Shown piece by piece: positions 38,675 through 49,928 of a stretch of DNA of 64,000 bases. Below the pieces are notes generated by a model. The model did no database searches. It was not told the DNA's origin and saw only the letters and a list, made by a program, of their open reading frames with translations. Source of the DNA: an uncultured Paracoccaceae bacterium (GTDB lineage: Bacteria; Pseudomonadota; Alphaproteobacteria; Rhodobacterales; Rhodobacteraceae); NCBI GenBank assembly GCA_938028765.1, contig CALIZF010000001.1, forward strand, positions 1-64,000, given 5' to 3'. Position 1 is the stretch's first letter; each line of letters starts with the position of its first letter. Position numbers and translations under genes: made by a program.

Positions 38675-40921
38675 TCAGCGCGCCAGGCGAAAATAGAGCG
38701 CGGGCAGTCGTTCGGGCAGTGCGGCGATGCGCGGCAGCACCACGAAGCCGCGCGGCCCGAAGATGCGCGTCAGCGGGTCGGCATTGCGCGGCCCGAGCGC
38801 GAGGCAGAACACGTCGATGCCCGCGCGGCGCAGTTCCATCACCGCATGCCGGGCGTCTTCTGCCAGGTAGCGCGGATCGGGACAGTCCACGTCCGACGGT
38901 TCGCCGTCGGTCACCAGCAGCACCAGGCGCCGGTGCGTGCGCTGCCGGGCCAGCCCCGCGCCGGCATGGCGCAGCGCCGCCCCAAGCCGGGTCGAGCGCC
39001 CCGGTGCAAGACCCGCCAGCGCCGCGGCGGCGGCCGGGCCGAACGGCTCGCCGTATCGCTTGACCGGGTAGACGCGCACCGCCTCGCGTCCGTCGGAATC
39101 GAAGGCGAACATCTCGAACGGGTCGCCCAGGGCGGCCATTGCATGGCCGAACAGCGCCGCCGCGTCGCATTCGAGATCCAGCACCGTGCCGGGCCCCTCG
39201 GGCGCGCGGTCGGCGGTCGATTGCGACGCATCGAGGATCAGGCTTACGGTCAGGTCGCGCCGGCGCCGGGCGGAGGCCTGATAGACCCGCGGATCGGGTG
39301 CCAGACCGCCGCGCAGGTCGGCCACCGCCCCGATCGCCGCGTCGAGATCGAGCGTCTCGCCCTCGGCCCGGCGGCGCAGCCGCTCGGCGCGGCCGACGCG
39401 CGCCGCGCGCACCAGCGCGTCGATGCGTGCGGCGGTGCCGGCGTGGCGGTCCAGCGCCTCGGTCACGAACCGGGGCCGGCCGCGGGCCGGGGCAGCCTCG
39501 AGCACCGTCACCCAGTCCGGCCGCAGGCGGCACGCCTGCCAGTCCCATTCGGGCAGCCGGGCGACGGGCAGCGCCTCCTGTGGGGCGGCGTCGCGTGCCG
39601 GTGCGGCGCGGCCGGCGTCGCGGTCGGCCTCGGTCCGGCCGCCCTCGGCTTCGGCCTGCACGAGGCGGATCGCATCGACCAGGAGTTCTGTTTCCAGCGT
39701 TTCGGCCGGCGCATCGTCGCCGTAGTCCCAAAGGCCGGTGTTGTCGTCGCGGTAGGGCGGCTCGACCACATGGGTCCGCGGGTTGAACTGCACCCGCATC
39801 TGCCCGAGGTCGTTGCCCAAGAGGTTGCCGATCGCGCGGCTGATGCCCGGGTCGTCCCAGCGGTCGCGCGCGGCGAAGAACAGATCCCGGCCCTTGCGCA
39901 CCCAACCGTCGATGTCCTCGAACTCGGGGTCGATCAGCGCACGCGCCAGCCGCGCAAGAAGGCCGGGCGCGGTCAGGGCGCCCGAGGCAGGCGCGACGTG
40001 GAACGGCAGCCACAACCGGGCGAGGCCGGGCAGCTGCCGCATCGCCAGGTGTTCGACTCGCGCATCCTCGATCAGCGAGACGGCCGCGATCTGCAGCGGC
40101 TTCAGCTTGCCGACGGGGAACCGCGGCCCGCCGAAGGTCATGTGGGCGCCGACATGCGCCAGCGCGGCGCGGAACAGATCCTCGGCCCGCGGCCCGCGAA
40201 ACCCGGGGAAGGTCGCCGGAACGGTGACGATCCCGGGCGCGAAGCCCACCCGTCGGCGGGCGCCGTCCGGCCGGCCGGGCAGCGCCTCGCGGATCGGCAG
40301 GCGGATGCCCCAGAGCGCGGTGAACCAGGCGCGCATCCGCCGTTCGACGTCGCCGAAGCCGGTCTCGGCCATCTCGCGCGCCAAGAGACGCCCGGATTCG
40401 GGGGTTTCGCCGGCGAAGAAGGCGCGCCGCCGCTCGGGGTCGGCCCCGCCCGCGCGCAGCCCGGCGAGAATCCAGGAGTCGAGGGCGGACACATCGAGGC
40501 CGGCCAGCAGCGCGTCGGTGCGCGCGAGCACCGGCACCACGGATTCCGGCGCGGTCGCGGCGAGGCGCTGCACGAGGCTGGCCCACCGGCGGAACCGCGG
40601 GCCGTCGCCGATCCGCTGCGCGGCCGCGACGGCGGCGCCGGCGAAGAGTGCGGCCGCCGGCGGGCCGGCCTTGATCGCCACGGCCGAGACATGCGCGGCA
40701 AGGTCGATCGCGGGTTCCGGCCCGACCGCCGCGGCGATCGCGGGGCCCGCGCGCCGGAAGGCCTCGGGCACGTCGGCGCCATAGCCCGCATCGGCCAGCC
40801 GTGCGCAGGCCCGCTGCCAGGGCGCAAGCCACGGCCCCCCGAACGGGCCGACCTCCGCCATGTCCCCGCCGGGGCCGCCGGGCGGGACCGCGCGCGGGGA
40901 CGGGCGGCGCGACTTGTGCAC
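38675..40921 (-). CDS. NorD/CbbO-like VWA domain protein
   Basis: Long N-terminal domain and C-terminal VWA ([18 protein letters not shown], DxSxS MIDAS); [32 protein letters not shown]; next to the CbbQ/NorQ ATPase gene. Confidence 0.87.
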
Positions 40922-40926
40922 GGCGT

Positions 40927-41733
40927 TCAGCCCGCCGCAGCGACCACATGCGCGAGCGCGTCGCGCAGATCGGGATCGTCCGTCATCGGCAGGATCAGCG
41001 CGATGCGGCAGGCTTCGCCGAGGGGAACGCCCCGCGCCATCAGCTTGGCCGCATGGATCAGCATCCGCGTCGAGGCGCCCTCCTCCAGCCCCTGGCCGCG
41101 CAGGTTGCGCGACCGCCGCGCGATGTCCACAAGCCGCGCGGCAAGTGCCGGCGCTGCCCCCGATTCGGCCGCGACGATCTCGGCCTCGACCGCGGGATCG
41201 GGCCAGCCGAAATCGAGCGCCACGAACCGCTGCTTGGTGGATTCCTTCAGGTCCTTCAGCACCGACTGGTAGCCGGGGTTGTAGGAGATGACGAGGTGGA
41301 AATCGGGATGGGCCCTGACCAGTTCCCCCTTCTTCTCGAGCGGCAGGATGCGCCGGTCGTCGGTCAGCGCGTGAATGACCACGGTTGTGTCCTGCCGCGC
41401 CTCAACGATCTCGTCGAGGTAGCAGATCGCGCCGTGGCGCACAGCGAGCGTCAGGGGGCCGTCGGCCCAGACCGTGCCGGCCGGTTCCAGAAGGAACCTC
41501 CCGACGAGGTCCGAGGCGGTCATGTCCTCGTGGCACGAGACGGTGACGAGCGGCTTGCCCAGCCGCCAGGCCATGTGTTCGACGAAGCGGGTCTTGCCGC
41601 AGCCGGTCGGCCCTTTGAGCATCACCGGCAGGCGGTGCGCATGGGCGGCCTCGAACAGTGCGATCTCGCCGCCCGAAGGGCGATAGTAGGGTTCTTTGGC
41701 GATGCGGTAGGCATCGAGGGTCATCGCGTCCAT
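40927..41733 (-). CDS. CbbQ/NirQ/NorQ-family AAA+ ATPase
   Basis: [47 protein letters not shown]...[29 protein letters not shown]. Confidence 0.92.
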
Positions 41734-41782
41734 CCATGGGAGGACCGGGGCGCAACAGCGCGCCCCGGCCGGGGCCCGGCGC

Positions 41783-42823
41783 TCAGCGGTGCGCCGCGGC
41801 CTTCTGGTTCGGAATGCCCTCGATCGGGCATTCGGGCGTGCCGACCGTCGCGCGGGTGATCGATTCCACCATCTCGCGCGTGCCCTCGGGGTCCGAGATC
41901 CACTTGGTGTAGAAGTCGTAGGGGCAGGCCGCGACCCCGCGCCCGTCCTCGCCCGAGTTGATCATGCCGGTATAGCCGCGGTGCAGAAGCTTGAAGAGAT
42001 GGTTCTGCGACTGGCCGTTGCGGCGCGCGTCGCGGATCGCCGGCACCGACAGCTGGGCATACTGGATGCCCATCTCCTCCTCGCCGCATTCGCCCAGGGT
42101 GCGGCCGTCGAAGCCGACGATGGCGGAGTGGCCGAAGTAGGAATACACCCCGTCGAAACCCGCGGCGTTCGCCACCGCGACATAGACGTTGTTGGCCCAG
42201 GCCATCGCCTTGGCCATCATCACCTGCTGGTCCTTGGCGGGATACATATAGCCCTGACAGCGTACGATCAGCTCGGCCCCCTTCATCGCGCAGTCGCGCC
42301 AGATCTCGGGGTAGTTGCCGTCGTCGCAGATGATCAGACTGATCTTCAGGCCCTTCGGCCCCTCGCTGACGTAGGTGCAGCTGCCGGGATACCAACCCTC
42401 GATCGGCACCCACGGCATGATCTTGCGGTACTTCTGCACGATCTCGCCCTGGTCGTTCATCAGGATCAGGGTGTTGTAGGGTGCCTTGCGGGGGTGTTCC
42501 TCGTGCCGCTCGCCGGTCAGCGAGAATACCCCCCAGGTCCGCGCCGACCGGCACGCCTCGGCGAAGATCTCGGTCTCGTCGCCGGGGACGGTCGAGGCCG
42601 TCTCGTACATCTCCTGCTGGTCGTACATGATCCCGTGGGTCGAGTATTCGGGGAAGATGACCAGATCCATTCCCGGCAGGCCGATCTTCATGCCCTTGAC
42701 CATGTCGGCGATCCTGCGGGCGTTGGTCAGCACCTCGGCCCGCGTGTGCAGGCGCGGCATCTTGTAGTTCACGACGGCGACGCCGACCGTGTCCTTGCTG
42801 CTGGTGATATCGCCGTGATACAT
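41783..42823 (-). CDS. amiE: aliphatic amidase (acylamide amidohydrolase)
   Basis: Near-identical in long blocks to recalled Pseudomonas AmiE ([26 protein letters not shown]); Glu-Lys-Cys triad in [25 protein letters not shown]. Confidence 0.95.
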
Positions 42824-42866
42824 GTTCTCCTCCGTGTCTGGTTGTCGGGATGCGCGCGGGGGCGGG

Positions 42867-43556
42867 TCAGACCGCCATGTGGCGGTGCACGAGGTCGTCG
42901 GTCAGGGCCGCGATCGGGCCTTCGGCGGCGACGGCGCCGCGTTCGAGAAGGGCAAAGCGCTGCGCAGCGCGGCGCGCAAAGCCGACGTTCTGCTCGACGA
43001 TCAGGATCGTCATGCCGCTGCGGTTCAGCGCCAGAAGCACGTCCTCGATCTGTTCGACGATGTTGGGCTGGATCCCTTCCGTCGGCTCGTCGAGCAGAAG
43101 GACCTTCGGCCGTGCCAGGAGCGCGCGGGCAATGGCAAGCTGCTGCTGCTGGCCGCCCGACAGGTCGCCCCCGCGCCGGTCGAGAAACGCGCGCAGGATC
43201 GGGAACAGGTCCAGAACGCGGTCGTCGATCGCGCTGCGGCCGGTGCCGCAGAGGGCGCCCAGGATCAGGTTCTCGCGCACCGTCAGGTCGGCGAGGATCC
43301 CCCGCCCCTGCGGCACATACCCCAGGCCCGCGCGCGGCCGCAGGTGCCGCGGCAGCGACAGAAGGTCGGCCCCCGCGAGGCGCACGCTGCCCTCGCAGCG
43401 GTCCATGTGCCCCATCAGCGCGCGCATCAGCGTGGTCTTGCCCACACCGTTGCGGCCCATCACGCAGAAAAACGATCCTTCGGGGACGACGAAGGTCAGG
43501 CCGTTCAGCGCGCGCGAGCGGCCGTAATAGGCGTCGAGGCGGCTGATCTCAAGCAT
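42867..43556 (-). CDS. branched-chain/urea/amide-type ABC transporter ATP-binding protein (UrtE-like)
   Basis: [56 protein letters not shown]. Confidence 0.9.
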
Positions 43557-44331
43557 CCGAGAAGCCCTTTCCGCCGAGGTAGGCTGTGCGCACCGCCGGA
43601 TCGCGCTCGATCTCGTCCACCCCGCCCTCGGCCAGTAGCCGCCCCTGGTGCATAACCGAGATCCGGTCTCCGATGGCCTTCACGAACGACAGGTCGTGCT
43701 CGACCACGATCAGGGTGTGCAGGCCGCGCAGGCGGTTGAAGAGTTCAGCCGTCTTGCGCGTCTCGGCCTCGGTCATGCCGGCGGTCGGTTCGTCCATCAG
43801 GATGACCTCGGGATCCTGGGCGAGCAGCATAGCGATCTCGAGCCACTGGGTCTGGCCGTGCGACAGGTGCGCAGCGGTCTGGTCCAGCCGGTCGGCCAGC
43901 CCCACCAGTTCGGCGATCTTCGACAGCCCGTCGTCCTCGGCGCCCCGGGCGCGGGCGAACAGGTTGGCCAGCACGCCGGTCGCGCGGGCGCGGGCGATCC
44001 GCAGGTTCTGCCGCACCGACAGCGGGCGGAACACGCTCGGCACCTGGAACTTGCGCCCGATCCCCGCGCGGGCGATCTGGTGTTCCTCGAGCGTGTCGAT
44101 ACGTATGCCGCCCAGCCAGATGCGCCCGACGGTCGGCTTGACCTTGCCGCAGATCATGTCGAGCGCGGTCGTCTTGCCGGCCCCGTTCGGCCCGATCAGG
44201 CAGCGCAGCTCGCCTTTCGCCACTGTCAGGTTCAGGCCGTCCACGGCCTTGAACCCGCCGAAGCTGACCCCGACCCCTTCGAGACGCAGATGACCCTCGC
44301 CGACCGGGTGGAGCGCGACGGGCGCGTTCAT
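43549..44331 (-). CDS. ABC transporter ATP-binding protein (UrtD-like)
   Basis: LIGPNGAGKTTALDMICGKVKPTVGRI...LSHGQTQWLEIAMLLAQDPEVILMDEPTAGMTEAET. Confidence 0.9.
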   Translation of the reverse strand: MNAPVALHPVGEGHLRLEGVGVSFGGFKAVDGLNLTVAKGELRCLIGPNGAGKTTALDMICGKVKPTVGRIWLGGIRIDTLEEHQIARAGIGRKFQVPSVFRPLSVRQNLRIARARATGVLANLFARARGAEDDGLSKIAELVGLADRLDQTAAHLSHGQTQWLEIAMLLAQDPEVILMDEPTAGMTEAETRKTAELFNRLRGLHTLIVVEHDLSFVKAIGDRISVMHQGRLLAEGGVDEIERDPAVRTAYLGGKGFSDA

Positions 44332-45431
44332 GCCTTCCCTCCTGTCGGGCCCGGCGCGGGCACGGCCGCGGGATCGGGCGCCGCCCCGCGCAGCCGCCGA
44401 GCGATGTCTTGCGCGGCGCCGGCGATCCCGCGCGGCAGGAAAAGGACCACCGCGATGAACAGAAGGCCCATCAGGAGCGACCAGGATTTCAGGAACACCT
44501 GCGATTCCGACAGCGCGCCCTGCACGCCGGTGACGAAGATCGCGCCGATCGCCGCGCCGAGCAGGCTTTGCCGCCCCCCGACCGCCACCCAGATCACGAT
44601 GGCGAGGCTGAAGGGCACGTCCATGAAGGTCGGCGAGGCGAACTCCATCACGACTGTGTAGATCATGCCGGCAAGCCCGGCGATCGCGGCTGAGAAGGTC
44701 ATCGCGAAGATCTTGAACCGCGCCACGTCGTAGCCGAAGAAGCGGACCCGGTCCTCGCTGTCGCGGATCGCCTGCAGGATCAGGCCCGTCCGGCTCATCG
44801 CCGCGAGGTAACCGATCAGAAGGACCGCGATCAGGACGCCCGCGGCGAGGTAATAGACGTCGGCCGAATAGGCGTCGAATTCGTGCCCGAACAGCGCGAG
44901 AAGGCCGAGGTCGGTAATCCCGTTGAACCCGCCGGTGTAGGCCTGCTGGTCGATCACGACGAGGTTGAGCACCACCATGACCGCCAGCGTGATGATGGCG
45001 ACATAGACCCCGGTCACCCGGCCGCGGAACATGAACCACCCCAGCAGCGCGGCCATAAGCGCAGGCCCGGCGATGCCCGCCGCAAGCGCGAAGCCCTGGT
45101 TCTGGAACGGCACCCATAGAAGCGGCAGCCGCTCGACGTTGTTCCACACCATGAAGTCGGGCAAGCCGTCGGCGCCGGTGTGGATGGGTGTCGTCCTGAG
45201 CTTGAGATACATCGCCATCGCGTAGGCGCCCAGCCCGAAGCTGACCGCCTGCCCGAGGTTCAGGATCCCCGCGTAGCCCCAGGAGAAGCTGAGCGCCACG
45301 GCCAGGATCGCGAGGCAGCAGTAGCGGGCATACTTGTTGAGCAGGAACACGTCGCCGACGAACAGCGGCACGGCCAGGAGGACGGCGGCGAAGATCGCGA
45401 CGGGGCCGAGGGTGCCGAGGGCGCGCGGCAT
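44328..45431 (-). CDS. ABC transporter permease (UrtC-like)
   Basis: LSFSWGYAGILNLGQAVSFGLGAYAMAMYLKLR...; LivM/UrtC architecture. Confidence 0.9.
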   Translation of the reverse strand: MPRALGTLGPVAIFAAVLLAVPLFVGDVFLLNKYARYCCLAILAVALSFSWGYAGILNLGQAVSFGLGAYAMAMYLKLRTTPIHTGADGLPDFMVWNNVERLPLLWVPFQNQGFALAAGIAGPALMAALLGWFMFRGRVTGVYVAIITLAVMVVLNLVVIDQQAYTGGFNGITDLGLLALFGHEFDAYSADVYYLAAGVLIAVLLIGYLAAMSRTGLILQAIRDSEDRVRFFGYDVARFKIFAMTFSAAIAGLAGMIYTVVMEFASPTFMDVPFSLAIVIWVAVGGRQSLLGAAIGAIFVTGVQGALSESQVFLKSWSLLMGLLFIAVVLFLPRGIAGAAQDIARRLRGAAPDPAAVPAPGPTGGKA

Positions 45432-45432
45432 G

Positions 45433-46302
45433 TCAGGCCCGCCCCCGGCGGGTGAACAGGCCTTGCGGCCGGAAGCGGATCAGCACGACGACCGCCAGCA
45501 GGACCACGGCCTTGGCGATGGTGTCGTTGCTGAGATAGGCGATGAAACCCGACAGCTCGCCCAGCAGGCCCGAGCTTGCGACGGTGCCGAAAAGGCTCTG
45601 CACACCGCCCAGCACGACCACCATAAAGGCATCGACGACGTAGGCGGTCCCCATCTCGGGCGCGACGCTCTTCAGCGGTGCGACGAGGGCGCCCGCCAGC
45701 CCGGCCAGCCCCGCACCATAGGCGAAGGTCAGCGAATAGACCCGGTCGGCGTTCACCCCGAAGGCCTGCGCGACCTCGCGGTTCTGGGTGATCGCCCGCA
45801 GCCGCAGCCCCAGCGCGGTGCGGTAGATGATGGCCCAGGTCGCGGCGAAGGCGGCCAGCGCCACGACGAGGACGAAGACGCGGTAGGCGGAAACCGACAC
45901 CCCGAGGAGGTCCAGGCTGACGTCCAGGATATGGGGCGCCGCCACATAGCGCAGCTCGCCCCCCGCCGACAGGCGCACGGCCTGCTGCAGGACGACCCCA
46001 ACCCCCCAGGTCGCCAGGATCGTGTCGAGCGGGCGGGCATAGAGCCAGCGGATCACCGACCGTTCCGTGAGAAGCCCCAGCAAGGCCACCGCGACGAAGA
46101 CAAGCGGCATGCTGGCGATCAGCCCGAGGCCGAGGAACGTCTGCGCGAACCACGCGCCATAGGCGCCGAGCATGACGAATTCGCCATGCGCAAGGTTGAT
46201 GACGCCCGTCGTGCCGTAGATCACGGCAAGGCCGAGCGCGACCATCAGGAGGATCGAGGCGATCGAAAGCCCCGTGACGAACTGGGCGGCGATGTCGAGC
46301 AT
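45433..46302 (-). CDS. ABC transporter permease (UrtB-like)
   Basis: LMVALGLAVIYGTTGVINLAHGEFVMLGAYGAW...LRAITQNREVAQAFGVNADRVYSLTFAYGAGLAGLAGAL. Confidence 0.92.
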   Translation of the reverse strand: MLDIAAQFVTGLSIASILLMVALGLAVIYGTTGVINLAHGEFVMLGAYGAWFAQTFLGLGLIASMPLVFVAVALLGLLTERSVIRWLYARPLDTILATWGVGVVLQQAVRLSAGGELRYVAAPHILDVSLDLLGVSVSAYRVFVLVVALAAFAATWAIIYRTALGLRLRAITQNREVAQAFGVNADRVYSLTFAYGAGLAGLAGALVAPLKSVAPEMGTAYVVDAFMVVVLGGVQSLFGTVASSGLLGELSGFIAYLSNDTIAKAVVLLAVVVLIRFRPQGLFTRRGRA

Positions 46303-46362
46303 GTGCGGTTCCCGTGACGGACCGCGCCGGGGGTGCGTCGCCGCGCCCCCGGCACCGGCCGG

Positions 46363-47610
46363 TCAGACCTCCTTGAGGCCGTCAGCCGTGCAGCGCTGGT
46401 TCGGATAGGCCTTGTAGGGATCGGGTTCCTGCCAGGTCTCGGACTGCTTGAGGATCGTGAACTGCCCGTCCGATCCGCACTGGCCGATCTTGGGCCACAG
46501 CCAGGTATGCAGGTTCTCGGGCTCGATCCGCACCCGGCCCTGCGGGGCGACCATCTCTTCGCCCTTGATTGCCTCGCGGATGGTCGGCGGGGTGATGTCG
46601 GATGCCGCCAGCTTCTGGACCGCCTGCTTGAAGAGGTAGACCTGGAAGTAGGACGGTTCCGAGACGAAGTGGGTCACCTTGTCGCCGCCCCAGCGGCTGC
46701 GGTAGGCCTCGACGAAGCGCTGGTTCTCGGGCGAATCCCAGACCATGAAATAGGGCGCCGAGGTGAAGTGCCCCGCCGCGGCGTCACCGCCCATGGCCGC
46801 GACCTCGTTCTCCGACGTTGTCAGGCTCGCCATCGGCATCGTCTCGGGGTCGAGGCCGGCGGCGCGATACTGCCGGTGCAGCGCTACGACCGAGTCGCCG
46901 ACCACGGTCGAGAAGATGACGTTCGGCTTCTCGCTGCGGAACTTGTTGATGACGGACGAGAATTCCGAGTGCCCGAGCGGCACGTATTCTTCTGCGACGA
47001 CCTCGGCCCCGAGTTCGGCCAGAAGCTTCTTGCAGTAGTTGTTCTCTTCCTTCGGATAGATGTAGTTGGATCCGATCAGGTACCAGCGCTTGCCGAACTT
47101 CTCGACCAGCCAGGGCACGAAATCGTCCTGCTGCTGGTTCGGCACGGCGCCCGTGTAGATTACGTTCTTCGAGCACTCGCGCCCTTCGTAGAGCGTGGGG
47201 TAGAAATAGAGGTTGTTCTGCCGCTCGAACACCGGCAACACCGCCTTGCGGCTGGCCGAGGTGTAGGATCCGAACACGCTGACGCAGCGGTCCGACAGCA
47301 CGAGCTTGCGCGCCTTCTCGGCGAAGGTGGCCGGATCGGAAGCGGGATCCTCTTCCACCGGGACGATCCGCATCCCGTTGATGCCGCCGGCGGCGTTGAT
47401 TTCCTCGATCGCCATGATCGTCGCCTTGTGCAGCGACTCTTCGATGATCGCAGTCGTTCCGGTCAGCGAGAACAGCACGCCGACCTTGATCTCGCCGCCC
47501 TGCGCGTAGGCGAGGCCCGTGTTCTTGACCCAGACGTGCGGAAACAGGCCGGTCCCCGCGGCGACTGTCGTAGCGGCACCCTTCAGAAATGTTCGACGGC
47601 GCATGGGCAT
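46363..47610 (-). CDS. Tat-exported substrate-binding protein of urea/short-chain amide ABC transporter (UrtA/FmdD-like)
   Basis: Twin-arginine signal MPMRRRTFLKGAATTVAAG; IKVGVLFSLTGTTAIIEESLHKATIMAIEEINAAGGINGM... Confidence 0.92.
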   Translation of the reverse strand: MPMRRRTFLKGAATTVAAGTGLFPHVWVKNTGLAYAQGGEIKVGVLFSLTGTTAIIEESLHKATIMAIEEINAAGGINGMRIVPVEEDPASDPATFAEKARKLVLSDRCVSVFGSYTSASRKAVLPVFERQNNLYFYPTLYEGRECSKNVIYTGAVPNQQQDDFVPWLVEKFGKRWYLIGSNYIYPKEENNYCKKLLAELGAEVVAEEYVPLGHSEFSSVINKFRSEKPNVIFSTVVGDSVVALHRQYRAAGLDPETMPMASLTTSENEVAAMGGDAAAGHFTSAPYFMVWDSPENQRFVEAYRSRWGGDKVTHFVSEPSYFQVYLFKQAVQKLAASDITPPTIREAIKGEEMVAPQGRVRIEPENLHTWLWPKIGQCGSDGQFTILKQSETWQEPDPYKAYPNQRCTADGLKEV

Positions 47611-47655
47611 GATTGTGCACTCCCTGTGTCGGTATGGCTGGGCAGGATCGCACGG

Positions 47656-47680
47656 TGCGGACGCGCGTTCGCGCGCCGCA
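47656..47680 (-). other. strong RNA hairpin in the leader of the amide-transport/amidase operon
   Basis: Minus-strand TGCGGCGCGCGAACGCGCGTCCGCA forms about 10 bp with one bulged T; no following U-tract. Confidence 0.5.
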
Positions 47681-47719
47681 GCACGGGAAGGCGAGGGTCC
47701 GCAGCTGGTGCGGGCTACG

Positions 47720-47768
47720 CTGCGAAGATTGGCATTCGCAGAAAGTGATCGCGCAGTGTTGCGCAATC
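47720..47768 (-). promoter_or_regulatory. tandem hairpins in operon leader, candidate AmiR (ANTAR) RNA target
   Basis: Minus-strand GATTGCGC-AACACT-GCGCGATC (8 bp stem, hexaloop) then 5 nt then CTGCGAA-TGCCAATC-TTCGCAG (7 bp stem). Confidence 0.4.
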
Positions 47769-47828
47769 TTCTTGCGATTTTTCTGGCGACGCCGTTGCCG
47801 CCATGGCCGAATCATCAGCCTGATGAAA

Positions 47829-48425
47829 TTATGTTGCTTTCAAGATGTCGTGGCTGTCAAGCAGCGCGGTGGCCACCGCCCCGACGGTCACGCAGCGTTC
47901 CATGGCGCGGGCGCGCAGAAGCGCGTAGGCCTCGTCCTCGGACATGTTCCGCTCGGCCATCAGGATGGCCTTGGCCCGCTCCACCGTGCGCACCGACCGG
48001 AGGGTTTCCTCGAGCTTGTCGATCCGCCCGCGCAGCCGCCCCTCGTAGCGGAACTTGTCGCGCGCCACCTGGATCGTGGGAGCCACGACCTCGGAGGGGG
48101 CAGGATGCGGCAGCACCGCGTCGCACCCGGCCAGGCGCAGAACCTCGGCGCTGGCCGTCCGGCCGGCAGGGATCAGCACCACCAGCGCCAGCGGCGCCTG
48201 GCCGGGCATCCAGGGAACCCGCCGGTGCAGGTCGGGCGCATAGACGGCCATCAGCACATCGCCCGCAGAGGGCAGCGGATCGGGTTCCGGCCAGTCCACC
48301 GCGACCCGCGCCCGCATCTGCAGCAACGCCCGCCGCAAGCTGTTCGTGCCCGGCCCCGGCGGCGCAACGATTCGGGCGAACAGCGTCGGCTCTGCCGGCA
48401 CCGCCGAGGGCCTCACGCGACGCAT
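47829..48425 (-). CDS. amiR: AmiR-like ANTAR-domain antitermination regulator
   Basis: C-terminal ANTAR pattern LRSVRTVERAKAILMAERNMSEDEAYALLRARAMERCVTVGAVATALL; follows and overlaps amiC. Confidence 0.85.
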   Translation of the reverse strand: MRRVRPSAVPAEPTLFARIVAPPGPGTNSLRRALLQMRARVAVDWPEPDPLPSAGDVLMAVYAPDLHRRVPWMPGQAPLALVVLIPAGRTASAEVLRLAGCDAVLPHPAPSEVVAPTIQVARDKFRYEGRLRGRIDKLEETLRSVRTVERAKAILMAERNMSEDEAYALLRARAMERCVTVGAVATALLDSHDILKAT

Positions 48426-49555
48426 TCCCCGAACGTGCGCCCGGTGCCGACCAGATAGGGGTCTGCCCGCAGGGCGCGGGTCGATTGCATGACGAGGTCG
48501 AACTGGCCGCGCCGGTTGCAGCGGCCGATCCGCGCCCAGAGGTCGGTGTGCCCGGTCAGCGGATTGACCGCGATGCGGCCCTGCGGCGCCTCGATCTCGG
48601 TGCGCATAACGAAGGGCCGCAGCAGGTCGGTGTCGGTCGTGTTCGCCTCGGCCAGCGCGCGGGCAAAGACATGCACCTGGAAATAGGCTGCCTCAAAGCA
48701 CATGTTGAGGCTCACATCGCTGCCGTAGCGAGCCTGCAGGCGGCGAACGAACTCGGCGTTGCGCGGATTGTCCACCGAGGCGAAATAGGGCGCGGCGGTG
48801 AAGTGCCCTTCGCCCACGTCGTGCCCCATCGCGGCAATCTCGGCCTCGGTCGTGGTGATCGAGGCGATCGGCATCACCTTCGGGTCCATGCCGAGATCGG
48901 CATAGGACTGATAGAGATAGGTGGTCGATTCGCCCACGACGGTGGAGAAGATGACATCGGGCTGCGCGGCCCTGATTTCGGCCATCGCGGCGCGGAAATC
49001 GCGCCGCGGGGCCCAAAGCGGCAGGTAGCGTTCGCCGACCACGGTTCCGCCGTTCGCCCCGATCAGCTCGCGCATAATTCGGTTCGTCTCGCGCGGATAG
49101 ACGTAGTCCGACCCGACGAAGAAAAACCGCGGCCCGAAGCGGGGCATCAGATACTGGCAGAGCACCACGCAGGTCTGGTTGGGCGAAGCGCCGGTATAGA
49201 CTACGTTGGGCGAGAACTCGAACCCCTCGTAGACGGTGGGATACCACAGCAGGCCGTTGAGCCGCTCGACCACCGGCAGCACGGCCTTGCGGCTCGACGA
49301 GGTGTAACAGCCGAAGATCGAGCGCACCTGGTCCTCGACCATCATCCGCCGCGCGCAGCGGGCGAAATTCGCCGGCTCGGACGCCGGATCGTAGATCACG
49401 GGCTGCAGCGGCCGGCCGGCGACACCGCCGGCCGCGTTGATCTCCTCGATGGCCGCCAGTGTGCCCTGGATCTGCGTCCGCTCGATGACCGCCATGAAGC
49501 CGGTGTTCGAGAACAGCACGCCGACGCGCCAGGGACCGTCGTCAAGCCCGTCCAT
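48413..49555 (-). CDS. amiC: AmiC-like amide-sensing negative regulator
   Basis: WRVGVLFSNTGFMAVIERTQIQGTLAAIEEINAAGGVAGRPLQPVIYDPASEP...; no signal peptide; overlaps amiR by 13 nt. Confidence 0.88.
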   Translation of the reverse strand: MDGLDDGPWRVGVLFSNTGFMAVIERTQIQGTLAAIEEINAAGGVAGRPLQPVIYDPASEPANFARCARRMMVEDQVRSIFGCYTSSSRKAVLPVVERLNGLLWYPTVYEGFEFSPNVVYTGASPNQTCVVLCQYLMPRFGPRFFFVGSDYVYPRETNRIMRELIGANGGTVVGERYLPLWAPRRDFRAAMAEIRAAQPDVIFSTVVGESTTYLYQSYADLGMDPKVMPIASITTTEAEIAAMGHDVGEGHFTAAPYFASVDNPRNAEFVRRLQARYGSDVSLNMCFEAAYFQVHVFARALAEANTTDTDLLRPFVMRTEIEAPQGRIAVNPLTGHTDLWARIGRCNRRGQFDLVMQSTRALRADPYLVGTGRTFGECVA

Positions 49556-49587
49556 GCTGGGGACCCCGCGGTCTGCAACTGGACCGA

Positions 49588-49615
49588 AGACTAAAGTAGG
49601 TTGCCGCTCAGTCAA
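49588..49615 (-). promoter_or_regulatory. candidate sigma70 promoter for amiC-amiR
   Basis: Minus-strand TTGACT-N16-TAGTCT about 33 bp upstream of the amiC ATG. Confidence 0.35.
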
Positions 49616-49928
49616 GCCGTGCAAGGCCGCGGCGACCGGAACCGGACCGGGACGCCCGCAGTGCGGGCAAAGGCGACCGGGTTTGCCGATTTCGCGTTCA
49701 GCAAGATATCGCGCGGCGCGCCGGCTGCGCCGGCAGGGCCGCCGCCGCCGCGCCCCCCCCCTGCCCCGGCCCGCCGGGGCGGGTCAGAAGGGGTCAGCCG
49801 AAAGGATGCGGTCGTCCACGCGGCCGCTGCCGACGCAGGCGCCGCGCGAGCGGCCCTGACGAAGGATCGTCCCTGCCTGCCCCGCGACGCCGGTTCGCCT
49901 GCCCGCCGCTGCCCGGTTGATGACAAGG

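Follow-up and report, generated by a model that had tools for sequence, protein, structure and literature searches.

An aliphatic amidase with a Rubisco-type C-terminal tag beside a CbbQ/CbbO-like AAA+/VWA pair suggests an amidase activase

We analysed a 64,000-nucleotide stretch of a contig from an uncultured Paracoccaceae bacterium (CALIZF010000001.1, positions 1 to 64,000; hereafter the window), in which the gene for an aliphatic amidase, AmiE (41783–42823, minus strand, 346 residues), is followed on the same strand by genes for a MoxR-class AAA+ ATPase (40927–41733, 268 residues) and a VWA-domain protein (38675–40921, 748 residues), for which we propose the names AmiQ and AmiO. The AmiE chain ends ...NQKAAAHR directly before the stop codon, and a terminal His-Arg or His-Lys sets AmiE proteins encoded beside such a pair apart from all others in our comparison. 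As judged from sequence, this repeats in an unrelated enzyme the tail pattern of Rubiscos served by CbbQO activases. Our comparisons suggest that AmiQ and AmiO probably form an amidase activase, which would dock on the AmiE tail and remodel stalled enzyme as CbbQO does for Rubisco.

The proposed docking tag of the window AmiE is encoded by the codons CAC CGC (41786–41791, minus strand), read directly before a TGA stop. All 34 AmiE proteins encoded beside a pair end in HR or HK, as against none of the 41 others, so that all 75 rows agree, that of a Rhodococcus locus included; an AmiE was counted as unlinked when no pair lay within roughly 10 kb of its gene. The count sets aside one row, that of Acidithiobacillus caldus; locus L185 is cut by the end of its contig. 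On the A. caldus megaplasmid (L035:10001-12931), AmiE ends in HK and is followed by a VWA gene in two open reading frames, with no AAA+ gene nearby; this copy may be decaying, or may make use of a CbbQ from elsewhere. Since both the alignment column scan and the motif came from the first set of sequences (an H[RK] end in 22/22 linked and 0/31 unlinked AmiE), the independent tests are the genomes drawn later and the published work on Rubisco. In the later genomes, the tag was found in 12/12 linked and 0/9 unlinked AmiE (Fisher p = 3.4e-6).

The only AmiE alignment columns that separate linked from unlinked rows are position 335 and the last two residues. On an AmiE tree built without the tails, 7/7 independent phylogenetic pairs agree (p = 0.016), and with a larger AmiE set 6/6 pairs agree when only well-supported branches are counted (p = 0.031), while the best tree yields 12 pairs. 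The tails themselves vary in sequence and in length, reaching 7 to 11 residues past a conserved position, with HR or HK always at the very end. The AmiE of locus L195, which has no pair, ends ...NPRSVG and that of L166, which has one, ...NPESVGHK; the difference looks like the shortening seen in carboxysomal Rubiscos without CbbQO, which generally end two residues sooner (PMC8718961). Taken together, these sequence comparisons indicate that the tag and the pair belong together. In the open-access literature, subscription papers not being covered, neither an amidase activase nor the tag on AmiE turned up in earlier work.

Previous studies have shown that CbbQO-associated Rubiscos, of form I as of form II, end in an HK/R motif that other Rubiscos lack, that activation is lost on deleting one or two tail residues or on adding an alanine, and that the ATPase is stimulated by a Rubisco tail peptide (Tsai et al. 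2015, PMC4660213). Activase specificity is set by the last three Rubisco residues (PMC8718961). In the loci compared here, Rubiscos beside CbbQO mostly end in HK or HR, the exceptions being L011 (...ANK) and L159 (...KHA). Because AmiE carries the same two-residue tag that the Rubisco motors need, beside a related motor, AmiE is very likely the client of the pair. The likeness extends to the machines: the A. ferrooxidans CbbQO systems (Q1O1, Q2O2) also combine a MoxR AAA+ protein carrying CbbQ_C with a VWA/MIDAS adaptor of about 750 residues, their motor gene directly follows that of the client, and the client ends in HK/R. They differ in that the window's client is a cofactor-free cysteine amidase and not Rubisco, its AAA+ lies outside the CbbQ clade, and its pair is a putative activase.

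AmiQ consists of AAA_5 and CbbQ_C, its Walker A, Walker B and helix-2-insert motifs are all intact, and the ten-residue helix-2-insert motif fits the GRXLL/IXXXXT given for NorQ. AmiO has a VWA domain with an intact MIDAS (DxSxS at residue 564) and a conserved C-terminal end; its full-length relatives adjoining amiE are 40–48% identical, and its similarity to NorD is confined to residues 444–746. The proposed client, AmiE, scores 718 bits against NF009802 (cut-off 427) and aligns to solved aliphatic amidases over 341 residues with no gaps.

The linkage of amiE to the pair is far beyond chance. On plasmids, amiE is rare (64 of 72,556 records at E 1e-60), yet in 18 of the 23 plasmid records that match the VWA protein over 80% or more of its length, amiE lies no further than about 6 kb from the VWA gene; two more show CbbO adjoining Rubisco, and the other three were not resolved. 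A sample of 385 genomes of the class gave VWA matches in 13. Two of these are near full length, in the window's own genome and in G379, and both adjoin amiE; the other 11 cover the C-terminal part only and all adjoin norB. In a sample of 399 genomes of the phylum, 32 amiE genes were followed by an AAA+/VWA pair in 9 cases, by AmiB in 8 and by neither in 15. The preliminary description of this DNA had asked for a search for CbbQ/CbbO homologs beside amiE, and we see this linkage recur in alpha- and betaproteobacteria.

It had further supposed that the pair takes the position of AmiB, the AAA+ protein of amiEBCRS operons, and gene orders in related clusters bear this out. Paraburkholderia, Burkholderia and G556 share the order amiE-AAA-VWA-amiC-amiR, whereas the G879 cluster, whose transporter is related, has the order amiE-amiB-amiC-amiR, its AmiB being Clp-type. 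Two different AAA+ types thus fill the same slot, directly after amiE, in different lineages, and none of the loci examined had an amiE with both. The resemblance ends at the slot: AmiB relatives are Clp-type (AAA_2 plus ClpB_D2-small), have no VWA partner and accompany AmiE proteins with other tails, whereas the window AAA+ is AAA_5 plus CbbQ_C. Clp-type AmiB genes adjoin amiE in gammaproteobacteria, in one alphaproteobacterium and, divergently, in Rhodococcus (L046:9090-10142, L037, L198:8163-9188, L199:6808-7875). AmiB-linked AmiE often ends in a seemingly conserved GKEKxAG, and AmiB, as a second AAA+ partner, may read the AmiE tail too; as most AmiB-linked AmiE belong to one clade, this tail is best taken as a lead.

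The gene neighbourhood also bears on whether the motor instead acts on the AmiC-AmiR regulator complex, opening it to release AmiR. Either gene lies near the pair in many loci (amiC in 12/21, amiR in 11/21), as this would predict; however, L149, L151 and L154 carry amiE-AAA-VWA with no amiC detected nearby, and the tail tag is on AmiE and not on AmiC or AmiR, making a regulatory client very improbable.

To place the AAA+ protein, we built a tree of 51 sequences labelled by gene neighbour. NorQ forms one clade (100/99) and CbbQ another (99/96), and the window AAA+, for which branching inside NorQ had been considered, falls outside both; by score it is nearer to CbbQ (393 bits against the solved protein) than to NorQ (332 bits). 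The amidase-linked AAA+ proteins, the window's included, surround the CbbQ clade. The test rejects a tree in which all amidase-linked AAA+ form a single clade (p = 0.001) but not one in which this clade also takes in a tubulin-linked row (p = 0.23), leaving moderate support (branches 83–87) for an origin of CbbQ from amidase-linked AAA+ proteins. NorQD, which inserts FeB into cNOR, shares with the window pair an AAA+ of AAA_5 plus CbbQ_C, a VWA partner and the helix-2-insert motif, but forms a separate clade, its NorD resembles the window VWA protein at the C-terminal part only, and AmiE takes no metal. NorB proteins encoded beside NorQD (norB of L048–L067) often have PAE or PGE as their last residues, perhaps a tail signal of a similar kind.

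Membership of the same protein families, together with the incompleteness of the genome (2.94 Mb, 83.6% complete), would allow the pair to be an ordinary NorQD or CbbQO serving a NorCB or Rubisco encoded elsewhere. The preliminary description had noted the lack of norCB and cbbLS in the window, and the same holds for the genome as far as it is assembled: no Rubisco was found, no norB was found, and neither of two haem-copper oxidases is NorB-like (22% identity or no hit). The genome encodes a single CbbQ_C protein. A scan of genome contigs with the VWA protein gave a single remote match, which was uninformative. Tree position and the lack of client genes in the assembled part lead us to reject ordinary membership, and we regard this explanation as largely refuted and the least credible of those considered.

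For the amidase activase we propose the following course. AmiQ, a MoxR-class AAA+ expected to be a hexamer and paired with the adaptor AmiO, would recognise AmiE through its free C-terminal His-Arg (or His-Lys), with a probable second contact in which the AmiO MIDAS would bind an acidic residue on the AmiE surface; ATP would then be spent to remodel or open stalled AmiE, restoring activity. We infer both the docking on the tail and the reactivation by transfer from Rubisco, whose tail was tested by mutagenesis. As to what stalls the enzyme, we can offer a guess, itself rather doubtful: a carbamoyl group, derived from urea or an analogue, on the catalytic cysteine. P. aeruginosa AmiE is slowly inhibited by urea. 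Related formamidases are inhibited by urea, and for a formamidase there is a report of a cysteine carbamoyl-switch (Martinez-Rodriguez 2019, as cited in PMC10781810). The Fmd porter imports short-chain amides and urea (PMC10781810), and the Urt/Fmd-type porter of the window could import urea or an analogue together with amides. Two clusters of the amidase/AAA+/VWA type carry urease genes, namely those of Ancylobacter and Shinella, where the urease genes lie inside the amidase/AAA+/VWA region (L008:13857-18944, L009:13968-19721).

Several considerations weigh against this proposal. Many AmiE proteins, some of them 88% identical to the window's, have no AAA+ partner, so AmiE can do without one; as AmiE offers no site for a metal or a sugar phosphate, it is hard to see what would correspond to the inhibition of Rubisco; and binding of the tag could have a different purpose, such as assembly, localisation or turnover. 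The evidence is all comparative, and activase activity is a prediction.

Assembly is the purpose that deserves most attention. If the pair were a folding or assembly chaperone that binds the tails of new subunits and helps to build the AmiE oligomer, with no role in repair, the tag and the linkage would be explained equally well; the sister machine NorQD is a maturation factor (PMC13036017), and assembly or activation has been suggested for a similar pair, as discussed below. However, the solved AmiE has no inserted cofactor, the closer relative CbbQO repairs finished enzyme, and an AmiE very close to the window's occurs without the pair. On the AmiE tree, proteins that have the pair are mixed among those that lack it, and this, together with the 88% identical AmiE that lacks the pair, indicates that the pair is optional for the family. 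With such close relatives in view, we favour conditional reactivation over obligate maturation, and we regard a pure chaperone as unlikely.

Turnover would reverse the role: the pair would disarm AmiE or feed it to degradation, as a negative control, and the tail would be a degron. AAA+ unfoldases typically act on C-terminal tags, and the alternative partner AmiB is Clp-type. Against this, no protease-docking partner is encoded, and MoxR/VWA machines of known function activate their clients; we consider degradation distinctly improbable, though less so than a regulatory client. Tree position, conserved linkage, the client genes not found and the AmiE tail thus favour what the preliminary description had suggested in broader terms, namely that the AAA+/VWA proteins activate or mature an amidase; of the two roles we prefer activation.

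The closest published case is an operon on a plasmid of Pseudomonas veronii Yu15, in which amiE, amiC and amiR are joined by genes for a CbbQ/NorQ-class AAA+ and a NorD-like protein; that 2026 paper suggests that the pair could serve amidase assembly or activation and calls its role unclear (PMC13209695). It treats a single operon, and the section consulted contains no comparative test or tail motif. HK/R on Rubisco and one amiE operon with the pair were thus already known, and the tag on AmiE that tracks the pair is new here, as far as the open-access literature goes.

Rubisco is the client of the CbbQO activases characterised so far, and for many MoxR/VWA pairs no client is known. Tentatively, and at somewhat below even confidence, we put forward that C-terminal His-Arg/Lys is a portable docking tag by which a single family of AAA+/VWA repair motors is coupled to unrelated enzymes, namely Rubisco of forms I and II and aliphatic amidase, and that the Rubisco activase CbbQ arose within an amidase-servicing lineage. 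If a second client of unrelated chemistry shared the tag, the HK/R end would be a general address label, and this would help to explain the recurrent AAA+ genes adjoining amiE, AmiB included. AmiE would offer a simple, easily assayed client for studying these motors, and further clients could be sought by looking beside orphan MoxR/VWA pairs for proteins with an HK/R end. Among neighbours of the unassigned pairs inspected here (L007 tubulin-linked, L066, L156, L162, L165), no convincing HK/R tails were seen. Of these, L066:5995-9705, on a plasmid of Miltoncostaea (Actinomycetota), has CbbQ-class AAA+ and VWA genes with no recognisable client alongside; in Agrobacterium L007, tubulin-like genes precede a second CbbQ-class AAA+/VWA pair.

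The amidase genes belong to a run of ten, all on the minus strand and transcribed from 49624 to 38675, present in the order first described: amiC, amiR, the substrate-binding protein gene, genes for a UrtB/C/D/E-like transporter, amiE, AAA+ and VWA. Intergenic gaps are operon-like, with 49 nt between amiE and the AAA+ gene and 5 nt between the AAA+ and VWA genes. Proteins were assigned by family profile searches, with scores compared to model cut-offs. The AmiC-like sensor, a cytoplasmic-type binding protein (48413–49624, start codon uncertain; Peripla_BP_5, 461 bits), neighbours an AmiR-like regulator (47829–48425; ANTAR, 59 bits), thus a Peripla_BP_5 sensor gene next to an ANTAR antiterminator gene as in AmiC/AmiR systems. 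The window AmiC is 62–68% identical to AmiC-position proteins in related operons. The Urt-type substrate-binding protein (46363–47610; Peripla_BP_5, 469 bits) scores below the UrtA cut-off (413 of 493 bits), as AmiC does too. It stands alongside four equivalogs above their cut-offs: a UrtB-like permease (45433–46302; TIGR03409, 317 bits), a UrtC-like permease (44328–45431; TIGR03408, 348 bits), a UrtD-like ABC ATPase (43549–44328; TIGR03411, 324.6 bits) and a UrtE-like ABC ATPase (42867–43556; TIGR03410, 290.7 bits).

The reading frame of the binding protein opens at 47766, and its start is more probably at 47610, where the predicted product begins MPMRRRTFLKG... and looks Tat-like. A start there leaves a 218-nt leader after amiR (47611–47828, minus strand), which has more structure than its shuffles (z -2.4) but matches no Rfam family and shows no coding-strand terminator; it is a possible AmiR antitermination site. 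Elsewhere, genes for a cytosine-permease-like protein and an alpha/beta hydrolase often accompany these amidase operons (L004:8689-11088, L006, L013, L043, L146, L147), and plasmids of Agrobacterium and Rhodococcus carry tubulin-like genes, together with a small hypothetical gene, near amiE (L007:14-6562, L199:11103-14738).

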